This document shows positions 8,047-49,104 of a DNA stretch of 64,000 bases, one piece after another; position 1 is the stretch's first letter; the number at the start of each line of letters is the position of its first letter. The translations under genes were made by a program, and so were the position numbers. The notes beneath the pieces were generated by a model. It searched no databases and was not told where the DNA came from. It saw only the letters and a program-made list of their open reading frames with translations. This stretch comes from Acinetobacter sp. ANC 4862 (GTDB taxonomy: Bacteria; Pseudomonadota; Gammaproteobacteria; Pseudomonadales; Moraxellaceae), in contig NZ_SJXH01000001.1 of assembly GCF_004336635.1 (NCBI RefSeq), positions 62,001-126,000 on the forward strand, in the 5' to 3' direction.

Positions 8047-9228
8047 ATGTCCTCAAACAATATCAAGCTCAGTCTGTTTTTATGCCTCAGTATGTGCTTA
8101 GGAATTGGTATTTTACGTTTTTCTTATACCGCGCTGTTACCCAGCACACGTGAAGCATTTGACTGGAGCGTAGGTTTTGCCAGCCTGTTAGGGAGTGCAA
8201 ATTTACTCGGCTATCTGATGGGCGCTTTTGCAGCCATGCGACTGCCCCAAAATAAAAGCATGACCCTATACATCCAAATTGCAGCAATCGCCGGCATGTT
8301 CAGTTTAATGTGCTGTGCTTTTGCAAATTTTCCTCAGGCCTGGTATATCTTCTGGCGTGTGATCTCAGGAATCAGCGGTGGTCTACTGATGATTCTATCG
8401 CCTAGTGTGGTTGCGCAGTGCTGTGATATTCAGGATCGCTTTAAAATCAATTTTATTGGTTTTAGTGGAATTGGTCTTGGGGTTTTATTGGCAACGCTTT
8501 TCTTGCCTTATCTGGATCAAATTTCGATACAAACAGCCTGGCTGATTTTATGTGGCTTCGCGCTGATGATTTGTGTGTGCTTAAGTATTTTACTGCAACA
8601 ATTTAAGCATCATTTGTCGGTGCAAACCATTGTGACCACCAGCAAAGTTAAGCTGAATACGCTTTTTTATAGCTTGCTGGTTGTGTATGCCTGCAGTGCA
8701 TTCGCCTATATTCCGCATTCATTGTTCTGGATTGACTATCTCAGTCATGAACTGGGGCTGAATTTATTCTGGATCAATTTTAACTGGATTCTTTATGGCT
8801 TAGGCAGCGCTTTGGGGGCTTTTACTGCCTACCTTTTAGCCAGAAAATTCGGTAACCTGACTGCTCTTAAAATACTTTATAGCCTGTATATCCTGGCGAT
8901 TTTTATTGCCACATTAAATACCAGCCCACTTCTGACTTTTACCTCATCCTTTTTTACCGGCCTGCTGAATCCGGCAGTCGTGTTTTTGACCTCTTATACG
9001 ATTCTACAACTCTATGCTTTGGCGTATAAAAAACTCTGGAGTATTGCGACACTGTGTTTTGCATCTGTTCAGCTGATTGGCGGTTTAAGTTTTAGTACAT
9101 TGCAGCATTTCGGTGTGACCTATCATCAACAGTTTCTATTGGCTTCTTTTGTATTATTACTCGGAACGCTGCAACTCGCATGGCATACACGCTCAAAGCA
9201 CTACAAGCAAACCGAACAAACACCTTAA
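8047..9228 (+). CDS. MFS transporter, YbfB/YjiJ-like
   Basis: A hydrophobic 393-residue protein with about twelve predicted membrane helices and no large soluble part. The N-terminal stretch (ISLGIGILRFSYTALLP-like, followed by WSVGFASLLGSANLLGYLMG) fits the YbfB/YjiJ family of major facilitator transporters, whose substrates are unknown. It is transcribed divergently from the acyltransferase across 230 bases. The next gene converges on it 13 bases downstream. No regulator is adjacent to hint at substrate. Confidence 0.8.
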   Translation: MSSNNIKLSLFLCLSMCLGIGILRFSYTALLPSTREAFDWSVGFASLLGSANLLGYLMGAFAAMRLPQNKSMTLYIQIAAIAGMFSLMCCAFANFPQAWYIFWRVISGISGGLLMILSPSVVAQCCDIQDRFKINFIGFSGIGLGVLLATLFLPYLDQISIQTAWLILCGFALMICVCLSILLQQFKHHLSVQTIVTTSKVKLNTLFYSLLVVYACSAFAYIPHSLFWIDYLSHELGLNLFWINFNWILYGLGSALGAFTAYLLARKFGNLTALKILYSLYILAIFIATLNTSPLLTFTSSFFTGLLNPAVVFLTSYTILQLYALAYKKLWSIATLCFASVQLIGGLSFSTLQHFGVTYHQQFLLASFVLLLGTLQLAWHTRSKHYKQTEQTP

Positions 9229-9241
9229 GTTTTAAATATTT

Positions 9242-9901
9242 TTATGAGGATGGGGCTAAATATAGATAAGGGTTTACTACTCCTTGTCCATTTAAATAGA
9301 TTCCATAATGCAAGTGTGGCGGGGTATTTTTACCATTACCACTATTGCCCACATAACCAATGACTTCCCCGGCTTCAACCCAGTCGCCTTCTTGAATCTG
9401 GTCAGCATAATCATCCAAATGGGCATAATAATGCCGGCTTAAATCTGGACCGATCATCCAAACCACTTTCCCACCCAAATTATTGGTTCCGACTTGCAAC
9501 ACAATGCCTTGAGTTGTGGTCCGTACAGGTGTTCCTCGTTTGGCAAAAATATCGACACCTTCATGTTTGCGCCCTTCACTCCGTGCTGCACCCCAGGTAT
9601 CTTGAACTTGTCGAGCTTTAATATTTTCAACCGGCATTGAAAGTTGTGCAGGCAAATCCATGTATTGTAATTGCATATATAAAATGGGGTAACGTATATC
9701 TGCTGATTCACCTGATGGTGGTGGCTGAAAGCCTGAAAGCCTGAAAGCCTGAAAGCCTGAAAGCCTGAAAGCCTGAAAGCCTGAAAGCCTGAAAGCCTGA
9801 AAGCCTGAAAGCCTGAAAGCCTGAAAGCCTGAAAGCAATATGAATACCATCATTAAACTCAGGCAGAAAATCTTTGTGAACATTTTTCGATGCTGATGCA
9901 T
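9242..9901 (-). CDS. M23 family (LytM-type) metallopeptidase with in-frame octanucleotide repeat tract; candidate phase-variable gene
   Basis: The C-terminal domain is an M23/LytM zinc endopeptidase of the type that cuts peptidoglycan cross-links. The ligands are intact: HEGVD (His-x3-Asp), HYYAHLDDY and PHLHYG. The N terminus (KIFCLSLMMVFILL) is a signal or anchor helix, so the enzyme should face the periplasm. Between them, 14 copies of an 8-bp unit encode a repeated octapeptide SGFQAFRL. Because 8 is not a multiple of 3, gain or loss of one unit changes the frame before the catalytic domain. At 14 copies the frame is open. The ATG at 9901 is taken as start; a TTG at 9910 and an ATG at 9883 are alternatives, and none has a clear ribosome site. 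Confidence 0.85.
   Translation of the reverse strand: MHQHRKMFTKIFCLSLMMVFILLSGFQAFRLSGFQAFRLSGFQAFRLSGFQAFRLSGFQPPPSGESADIRYPILYMQLQYMDLPAQLSMPVENIKARQVQDTWGAARSEGRKHEGVDIFAKRGTPVRTTTQGIVLQVGTNNLGGKVVWMIGPDLSRHYYAHLDDYADQIQEGDWVEAGEVIGYVGNSGNGKNTPPHLHYGIYLNGQGVVNPYLYLAPSS
9725..9836. repeat. Octanucleotide tandem repeat, 14 perfect units
   Basis: The unit is CTGAAAGC on the plus strand, GCTTTCAG on the coding strand. It occurs 14 times without interruption or mismatch over exactly 112 bases, all inside the M23 gene. All three frames through the tract are free of stops and give rotations of the same octapeptide. Reading with 13 units runs into TGA five codons after the tract. With 15 units it enters an unrelated 90-residue frame. 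Confidence 0.98.
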
Positions 9902-9985
9902 TAATTTCAAGAATTAAAGTGAGGTGATCTATTTCATCTTAAGTTTTTAATTCTATTGAATGAAATATGAGTTCTGTAAGTATAA

Positions 9986-10036: not shown

Positions 10037-11290
10037 TTATTCCATATTTTTAATCACTGCTTGACCAAATTCCGAACAACGTAACAAAGTCGCGTCAGGC
10101 ATTAAACGCTCAAAGTCATAAGTGACCGTTTTTGCAGTAATCGCACCAGAAACACCTTTGATGATCAAATCGGCAGCTTCAGTCCAGCCCATGTCACGCA
10201 GCATCATTTCAGCAGAAAGGATGATTGAACCCGGGTTTACTTTGTCTTGACCTGCATATTTAGGCGCAGTACCGTGAGTGGCTTCGTACATCTGAATTGC
10301 ACCCCCAATGTTTGCACCCGGAGCGATACCAATCCCCCCCACTATAGCTGCAAGCGCATCAGAAATGTAGTCACCGTTCAAGTTAAGCGTCGCAATCACT
10401 GAATATTCAGAAGGACGCATCAGGATTTGTTGCAGGAACGCATCAGCAATCACATCTTTAATGATAATGTCTTTGCCGTTTTTAGGGTTCTTGATTTTAA
10501 CCCATGGACCACCGTCAAGAAGCTCGCCACCAAAACGCTCAAGCGCGACTTCGTAACCCCATTCTTTGAATGCACCTTCGGTGTACTTCATGATGTTGCC
10601 TTTATGAACGAGAGTCACGCTAGGCTTGTCATTGTCGATTGCAAACTGAATGGCTTTACGAACCAGACGTTGAGTCCCTTCTTTAGAGACCGGTTTAATA
10701 CCAATACCACAATTTTCTTCGAAACGGATTTTAGTCACACCCATTTCTTCTTTCAGGAATTTGATGACTTTTTTAGCTTCTGGCGAATCCGCTTTCCATT
10801 CAATCCCTGCATAGATATCTTCAGAGTTTTCACGGAAAATCACCATGTCAGTCAGTTCAGGATGTTGAACTGGAGAAGGAACACCTTCGAACCAACGCAC
10901 TGGACGCACACAAACGTAAAGGTCTAATTCTTGACGTAAAGCGACATTGAGAGAACGAATACCACCACCAACAGGTGTCGTTAATGGACCTTTGATAGAA
11001 ACGACAAACTCGCGAAGCGCTTCGAACGTTTCTTCCGGCATGTAAGTACCATAGATTTTATCTGCTTTTTCACCGCAGTAAACTTCCATCCATTCGATCG
11101 AACGTTTGCCAGCGTAAGCTTTTTGAACTGCAGCATCTACCACTGCTTTCATTGTTGGTGTAATATCCACACCAATACCGTCGCCTTCAATGAAAGGAAT
11201 GATAGGATTGTTAGGAACATTCAGTGACAAGTCTGCATTTACGGTAATTTTGCTACCATCCACAGGCACAACAATCTTCTGATAACCCAT
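10037..11290 (-). CDS. icd: Isocitrate dehydrogenase, NADP-dependent, homodimeric type
   Basis: This enzyme oxidatively decarboxylates isocitrate to 2-oxoglutarate in the TCA cycle. The 417-residue protein matches E. coli Icd along its whole length: [12 protein letters not shown], the substrate loop [13 protein letters not shown] that holds the Ser phosphorylated by AceK in E. coli, [18 protein letters not shown] and [12 protein letters not shown]. An upstream extension is open to 11362, but the ATG at 11290 is preferred because GGGAGAA precedes it and MGYQKIVVP aligns with the family start. A second, unrelated isocitrate dehydrogenase lies 1.2 kb away, with only rluE in between. Confidence 0.96.
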
Positions 11291-11492
11291 TGTACTCGTT
11301 CTCCCTATTGTTATTCTATCTGGCGAATCTAAAAAATAATTGCCAATATGCAATACTTTCAACTTATCTTAACGCATAATATTGTAATCCTATTTAAGTG
11401 TTTTTGAGATTTACAGGGGAAATAACGCCATTTCCCCATAAAATAAAACTCAACGTTTCCAGTATTTATCATTATCAAAGTAGTTATTTTCT

Positions 11493-14683: not shown

Positions 14684-15497
14684 ATATAGCCCCTTGCGTT
14701 AGATTGAGTTTTGAGAACCGGGCTTTTGGCCCAGCCCTGCGAACCGATTTGCTTAAATAAAACATCGAAAGTATCGGTGCTCATTGCACCTCAGCTAAAC
14801 AACAATATCTTTTCATATTGCTTCTTGGCTGAAAATTCATATATATATCGGTGTTGTTCACCAATCCTTATATTCTACTTGAAATTTCGTATTTTTTCGA
14901 GTACAGGCAGTCTCAGCCGGTCTCTGCGACTCAATTCACACCCCTCATTACATGAGCAGCGATTCAGGACTTTAAGAACATATATTCTATATCTATCAAT
15001 ACTTTATATTATTTAAACCCTAGATAACTGATCAAAATTTAAACCGACCAATTTACTGTTTTACAACCCAATTAATTAAAACATGTTGGGTATCATGGAA
15101 ATAAATCATACATAAAGGAATACGATGCAAATTTTTTCCTGATCAGCCGAAAAAGTAATCATTGTGAAGTCTGCGCTCCTTACTTAAGTTTTACTAAACT
15201 TTAAAGGCTTTCGAGCGGTAATTTTCAACGAAATATTGTGGGAGAATCCAAGATATAAATGTTGTCCTTGAAGCTCAGCAAGGTGATAAATGGGGGATTT
15301 TAAAGGTGCGACCCATAAGTAAAATCTAATTTCAGAGCTTTAGCCTAAAGATACCAACCTGAAAAGAGTATAGATAAAATTACTTTTGAACAAATAACGG
15401 GTTTAAAGTATAAAATTAAACAAGTAAGAGATATCAAAAGTATCTGTTTGGTTGGTTGAGAAATAAAATCAAATCATTTTTTCATATTAAAAAATAA
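14684..15497. other. Long AT-rich region with no recognisable gene
   Basis: This gap lies upstream of the monomeric IDH and downstream of the M61 peptidase. A 101-codon open frame at 14711-15016 has Cys/Ser-rich, non-protein-like composition and no ribosome site. The stretch at 15110-15480 holds only fragments of open frame. I see no convincing RNA gene. The part next to 14684 should contain the IDH promoter. Confidence 0.5.
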
Positions 15498-48936: not shown

Positions 48937-48947
48937 GCGCATCAGAT

Positions 48948-49023
48948 TCTCCAATAGCTCAGTCGGTAGAGCGACGGACTGTTAATCCGCAGGTCCCTGG
49001 TTCGAGCCCAGGTTGGAGAGCCA
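48948..49023 (+). tRNA. tRNA-Asn (anticodon GTT), copy 2
   Basis: Same 76 bases as copy 1, with encoded CCA. Copy 3 begins five bases later, so both are on one precursor. Confidence 0.98.
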
Positions 49024-49028
49024 TCTAT

Positions 49029-49104
49029 TCTTCCATAGCTCAGTCGGTAGAGCGACGGACTGTTAATCCGCAGGTCCCTGGTTCGAGCCCAGGTGGAAGA
49101 GCCA
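49029..49104 (+). tRNA. tRNA-Asn (anticodon GTT), copy 3, variant acceptor stem
   Basis: The body is identical to the other copies. The acceptor arms are TCTTCCA and TGGAAGA, so base pairs 4:69 and 6:67 have both changed in a compensated way. Discriminator G and CCA are kept. Confidence 0.97.

Follow-up and report, generated by a model that had tools for sequence, protein, structure and literature searches.

The most plausible reading of the M23 peptidase gene described here is that it carries a slippage-prone microsatellite born from lipobox codons, which is predicted to act as an on/off switch. Fourteen perfect copies of an 8-bp unit sit where related proteins have their lipobox, and we lean towards the view that the array grew at this position by slippage, that it likely turns the enzyme on and off by frame, and that the enzyme would be without a lipid anchor even when on. 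Slippage would likely switch the enzyme on and off if the rates of slippage taken from other organisms hold here. An earlier note on this DNA had placed the tract between the signal helix and the LytM domain, and the tract does lie between the two; it is not merely an insertion between them, however, as it occupies and has replaced the lipobox. This overwriting of the lipid-attachment site, which the earlier note had missed, alters what is to be expected of the enzyme in the ON state.

The gene lies on the reverse strand at 9242..9901 of the window, the 64-kb stretch of DNA that was analysed, and encodes 219 amino acids from an ATG at 9901 to a stop at 9242. The longest possible start is a TTG at 9910, giving 222 amino acids, and the ATG at 9901 is conserved in the proteins P0001-P0003. 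The N-terminal basic and hydrophobic part, read as a signal sequence from its translation and hydropathy, is encoded upstream of the tract at 9837..9901 (reverse strand), with 19-residue Kyte-Doolittle windows of up to 2.0, and the repeat region gives values of 0.15-0.57. Downstream of the tract, the LytM-type catalytic domain (PF01551) is encoded at 9278..9568 of the same strand, and Pfam assigns residues 115-211 to this M23 family with 83.3 bits against a cut-off of 28.7. Both zinc motifs, Hx3D (9551-9565) and HxH (9308-9316), which define M23 enzymes according to the available part of PMC9662197, are intact, and H116-D120 and H199-H201 are invariant among 33 aligned proteins. From these features, peptidoglycan hydrolase activity is predicted for the protein. 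The solved structures closest by sequence and fold are LytM-type enzymes, namely LytM, lysostaphin, and Csd1/Csd2, and these, together with ShyA, have their fold and zinc motifs in common with the window enzyme in a comparison that covers the catalytic domain alone. To our knowledge, no LytM/M23 endopeptidase has a repeat at its anchor. The AlphaFold model draws residues 3-55 as one long helix with modest confidence (60-85 in blocks of ten residues), the catalytic part being better predicted.

The gene stands in a conserved neighbourhood, with icd, encoding NADP isocitrate dehydrogenase, upstream at 10037..11362 (reverse strand) and a convergent gene for a YbfB-type MFS transporter downstream at 8047..9228 (forward strand). 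The order icd-M23-MFS is found in all six named relatives (Acinetobacter terrae ANC 4282, Acinetobacter sp. ANC 3781, A. kookii, Acinetobacter sp. ANC 3903, Acinetobacter sp. ANC 4470, and A. albensis; L009-L014) and was not seen in L015-L016. Identity to A. terrae ANC 4282 (L009/L094) is 83% for the M23 protein, 98% for icd, and 90.5% for the transporter, so that the M23 gene is diverging faster than its neighbours. The named relatives, together with the matches of the MFS neighbour, place the host in the genus Acinetobacter. A scan for promoters and terminators gave nothing above shuffles. Elsewhere in the window, an 81-bp unit is duplicated in tandem with a 94% match at 48946-49104; the two copies are tRNA-Asn genes (48948-49023 and 49029-49104), both with the anticodon gtt.

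Tandem Repeats Finder, run on the 64-kb window, returned 14.0 copies of a period of 8 at 9725-9836 with a 100% match and zero indels, in agreement with the fourteen perfect copies that had been claimed for this gene. On the coding strand (reverse), the unit is GCTTTCAG; the tract contains no stop, and it is translated as repeats of the octapeptide LSGFQAFR, identical in all frames. Because 8 equals 2 modulo 3, the tract gives this one octapeptide whatever the frame, and only the sequence after the tract depends on the copy number. With 11, 14, or 17 units, the tract is followed by 160 codons up to a TAA and the catalytic domain is in frame, whereas 13 units lead to four codons and then a TGA, and 15 units to an unrelated frame that runs for 89 codons before a TGA. 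The frame arithmetic put forward earlier, with the zinc-ligand domain in frame at 14 units and restored at 11 or 17, an early TGA at 13, and an unrelated frame of about 90 residues at 15, is thus borne out, and the architecture expected for slipped-strand on/off switching had been correctly described as regards the tract and its frames. Start codons upstream of the tract are confined to one frame, so that expression of the enzyme in another frame from a different upstream start is ruled out. The idea that a conserved overlapping frame follows the tract was likewise rejected, as the corresponding shifted frames run for 39-82 codons in nine of 11 tract-free relatives and for 7 codons in the remaining two, and by this comparison the 89-codon shifted frame of the window is not special. 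In single-stranded form, the tract's coding strand gives a better fold than all 200 shuffled sequences (z -5.0), its hairpins being weak, and the complementary strand folds no better than shuffles, an asymmetry that could bias slippage.

The state of the site in other genomes is what sets the window gene apart. In the genus search, the query matched all 175 genomes, with the best matches falling into two groups; 57 genomes, including that of the window, were taken as carrying orthologues at E 2.5e-69 or better, a cut of our own choosing, with the weaker matches starting at 4.6e-60. Every one of the 56 orthologues from other Acinetobacter genomes (L094-L149) has a Cys, the lipid-attachment residue, at the position of Phe58 of the window protein, the sole exception, whose codon TTT (9728..9730, reverse strand) lies in the last unit of the tract. 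The position was also read in alignments of 33 and 38 proteins. The lipobox is LTAC in 15 of the 56 orthologues, LSGC in 12, LSAC in seven, LTGC in six, and LLAC, LQAC, LCAC, or LMAC in ten; the named relatives L009-L014, which are not independent of the 56, have the Cys at the site as well. A Cys at +1 of the lipobox, the mark of a lipoprotein, is therefore absent from the window protein, which has Phe58 instead. The window protein is 219 amino acids long vs 187 in relatives, a difference of exactly 12 units (96 bp, 32 amino acids) that keeps the relatives' frame, and the 32 proteins aligned with it, taken from the best 120 of 4275 M23 matches (the nearest being 84% identical), have no extra length at the tract site. 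The window's own M23 protein was absent among the M23 matches listed. For the MFS neighbour, among the matches listed, the 100% match is the cluster of its own contig, with two member sequences and a single contig given, and the next stands at 92%. No other isolate of the same species was found among the M23 and MFS-neighbour matches listed.

The DNA of the lipobox in near relatives suggests how the array may have come about. These relatives encode LSGC-Q or LSGC-H at the site, in DNA that consists of two imperfect octamers side by side. Among the nearest relatives, it takes one of two forms, either GCTTTCAG followed by GCTGTCAT, GTTGTCAG, or GCTGCCAG, or else GCTTTCGG or GCTTTCCG followed by GCTGTCAG. 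The two half-units agree at 6 of 8 positions in seven of the 56 orthologues (L094-L099 and L103), all of them among the 11 best-matching, and at 1-5 positions in the other 49, which indicates that the doublet belongs to near relatives only. The column majority of the six relatives L094-L099 is GCTTTCAG-GCTGTCAG, a doublet with one mismatch, located at the middle base of the Cys codon, and no single relative among the 175 genus genomes has both halves of the doublet exact. The window gene has GCTTTCAG as its final unit ahead of the conserved proline codons, which means either that the Cys codon became TTT or that slippage removed the variant unit. The array most likely grew at the lipobox by replication slippage: a Cys-to-Phe change, or the loss of the variant unit in slippage, would have produced a perfect doublet, and this doublet would then have expanded with a gain of 12 units in frame, in an order of steps that we infer. 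In our view, the birth event was a lineage-specific accident and not a proven adaptive switch.

The tract is far beyond chance, and it is confined to one genome in the genus, class, and phylum collections. The 3-unit pattern occurs at a single place in the whole 3.32 Mb genome; within the genus, (GCTKTCAG)x3 is found in one of 175 genomes, that of the window, and in none of the 174 others, and GCTTTCAGGCTKTCAG is likewise exact in the window genome alone of the 175. Three units of the form (GCTTTCAG)x3 occur in one of 369 class genomes and in one of 398 phylum genomes, the window genome both times. Viral contigs held no octamer array, and the 32-residue translation gave no phage record; on these counts (one of 369 class genomes, one of 398 phylum genomes, and no viral contig), the octamer was rejected as a motif spread by mobile elements, although an array of 45 units of it is present on an Acetobacter plasmid. 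Among the features by which simple-sequence-repeat (SSR) contingency loci are recognised, the gene has a simple repeat within its coding frame, with the loss or gain of a unit putting the product out of frame. A tract kept in related strains or species was not found, all 56 orthologues being without the tract and none of the 174 other genus genomes having three units. Since no other isolate of the same species was found and three units are absent from those 174 genomes, we class the locus as a predicted switch by slippage, private in origin, and stop short of calling it an established contingency locus.

A repeat census of the window plus 20 further 20-kb stretches of the same genome, 464 kb or 14% of its 3.32 Mb, gave no other unit of 7-12 bp with at least three perfect copies. 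At the thresholds used, the other multi-base perfect repeats in these 464 kb were GGTTAT x6 and CTTCAT x13, both in-frame hexamers, and homopolymers of 9-10 bases numbered 17, including two C9 runs. A genome rich in contingency tracts is thus not what was seen for multi-base frame-shifting units in this 14% of the genome. The CTTCAT x13 repeat (L166:13068-13145) encodes a long Ser run in a protein read from its translation as phage-like, and in-frame length polymorphism is likely there. The GGTTAT x6 repeat (L155:16064-16099) encodes the Gly-Tyr tail of a protein read from its translation as a Wzc-like tyrosine kinase, in which the copy number would set the count of tail tyrosines. The C9 homopolymers lie at L160:8921-8929 and 15199-15207, in the same 20 kb stretch, and are possible slippage sites.

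The unit and its octapeptide also turn up in unrelated settings. Plasmid pAP22518-1 of Acetobacter pasteurianus has 45 perfect copies of GCTTTCAG (L185:1445-1804; 392335-392694 of the record) inside a small annotated hypothetical protein directly upstream of the shufflon adhesin gene pilV, and the flank of this array is found in one plasmid record only. Hypermutable tandem repeats have reportedly been described in A. pasteurianus. Octapeptide runs identical or similar to that of the window occur in unrelated proteins among the 18 matches (E up to 10) of a protein search with the repeat alone and among three records of the plasmid collection. Runs of LSGFQAFR were seen, at the protein level only, in the unrelated predicted proteins P0242, P0245, P0246, P0247, and P0255, one of which is named as from Enterobacter aerogenes.

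For the enzyme itself, one consequence concerns its anchoring. Because none of the unit's three reading frames includes a cysteine codon, a slip could bring back the frame while the lipid anchor would stay lost, and on the strength of the missing Cys we predict that the ON state yields a hydrolase without a lipid. Such a product would either stay on its uncleaved signal helix or be cut by signal peptidase I. Signal peptidase I sites have small residues at -3 and -1, and by this rule no good site is apparent in the repeat. Taken together, the hydropathy profile, the AlphaFold helix, and the want of a good signal peptidase I site make an uncleaved inner-membrane anchor the simplest guess for the ON protein. 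A second M23 gene in the genome (G000:C3:42765-43286), 51% identical, has a lipobox of its own, and the presence of this second lipoprotein gene may make the loss tolerable; the loss of the anchor was perhaps tolerated for this reason.

Over the 160 mature codons, dN/dS by the Nei-Gojobori method was 0.083-0.175 between the window and eight relatives and 0.060-0.136 in the 28 pairs among those relatives, with dS of up to 1.5, near saturation, and with most of the branch perhaps predating the tract. Two of the eight window values (0.142 and 0.175) are above the relatives' range. Private single-base differences amount to 8 replacing and 6 silent in the window, one of the replacing differences lying in a multiply changed codon, and to 1-7 replacing and 2-4 silent in seven relatives. 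One private replacement, Ala193 to Gly, falls at a nearly invariant mature position, and the P154L replacement of the window is also present in P0003. By this weak test, the downstream enzyme appears to be without clear relaxation, and there may be mild relaxation.

Several known systems resemble the window gene in part. In Neisseria opa genes, CTCTT repeats lie in the codons of the leader peptide and slippage shifts the frame, according to the accessible text of PMC3960869; the window gene is like opa in having a non-triplet repeat inside signal-peptide codons. Unlike opa, for which that text treats switching as established, the window tract is private to one genome of those examined, lies on the lipobox, and has cost the protein its anchor residue. 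In lipoprotein genes of a Mycoplasma, a poly-G tract within the N-terminal codons has been proposed to shift the frame (PMC2996958), but it is a homopolymer in other proteins, and the available excerpt makes no mention of a tract replacing a lipobox. In Campylobacter jejuni, the peptidoglycan hydrolase genes pgp1 and pgp2 contain tracts prone to slippage, with an on/off effect on cell shape (PMC5133587); these tracts are homopolymers, the effect was shown by locking the tract, and an effect on lipidation is not mentioned in the portion available. In Haemophilus influenzae biogroup aegyptius, hmw1A and hmw2A have an 8-bp unit, GCATCATC, in 12-15 copies, which, in the part of PMC3309571 at hand, is located in the putative promoter of these adhesin genes and not, as in the window, in the reading frame. 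The genus itself is represented by the capsule genes gtr6 and wzx of Acinetobacter baumannii, in which slipped-strand frameshifts occur at short A or T homopolymers of 8-10 bases in phage-resistant mutants (PMC10249906, in excerpt). Within the open-access literature, taken as titles and abstract openings among the matches listed, no description was found of an octanucleotide tract in an Acinetobacter peptidase or of a repeat replacing a lipobox, and the available parts of PMC11868660, PMC11756786, and PMC12505892 contain neither.

Other readings of the locus have to be weighed against a predicted slippage switch of accidental origin. It may be that selection maintains the tract as an evolved contingency locus because switching of the hydrolase pays, for example, under phage attack, lysozyme, or envelope stress. 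A unit that is not a multiple of three, an intact in-frame enzyme, and a low dN/dS would all be consistent with this, as would the variable homopolymer tracts of the C. jejuni cell-shape hydrolase genes pgp1 and pgp2, as far as the excerpt of PMC5133587 goes. We nevertheless regard such selection as unlikely, in view of the absence of the tract from all 56 orthologues and all 174 other genus genomes, the loss of the lipobox, and the finding of no other frame-shifting multi-base SSR at the thresholds used in 464 kb, although 17 homopolymers of 9-10 bases were present there. Somewhat less doubtful is a neutral microsatellite in a gene that is being lost: the enzyme would already be inactive for want of lipidation, with the paralogue filling in for it and the tract drifting. 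The lost lipid-attachment Cys, the paralogue in the same genome, the private Ala193-to-Gly replacement at a nearly invariant mature position, and the two window dN/dS values, out of eight, that exceed those among the relatives point in this direction, but the 160 downstream codons are free of stops and frameshifts, the catalytic motifs are intact, and the frame is preserved at 14 units, an outcome with a one in three chance.

The tract or its copy number could also be an error of assembly, as the genome is a draft of 72 contigs and a perfect repeat of 112 bp is hard for short reads. We think this very unlikely, because the flanks and gene order are as in relatives, the tract occurs in one place only with no contig for a second allele, and the enzyme is exactly in frame. 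Least probable of all would be that the tract adjusts the length of a linker three units (8 residues) at a time instead of switching the frame; the long helix that AlphaFold draws for residues 3-55, at modest confidence, would suit such a linker, but single-unit slips are expected to dominate and would break the frame, and the 32 other aligned proteins have no extra length at the site. The predicted slippage switch at the former lipobox accordingly remains our preferred reading. A bolder version of it, a possibility that we entertain only tentatively, is that the birth of a repeat at the LSGCQ codons turned a lipoprotein hydrolase into a frame-switched enzyme acting from the inner membrane or periplasm, with lipobox codons serving as a microsatellite nursery; if true, one genetic event would have created both a switch and a change of address.

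How contingency loci arise can seldom be seen. In this case, close relatives still have what was likely the state before the repeat, an imperfect 8-bp doublet in the lipobox, which makes it possible to assign the birth of a frame-shifting microsatellite to specific codons and to compare it with the situation in sister species. If the tract does switch, it would provide an on/off cell-wall hydrolase in a genus whose reported slippage, in the available part of PMC10249906, concerns homopolymers in capsule genes, and frame switching would be joined to the loss of lipid anchoring.
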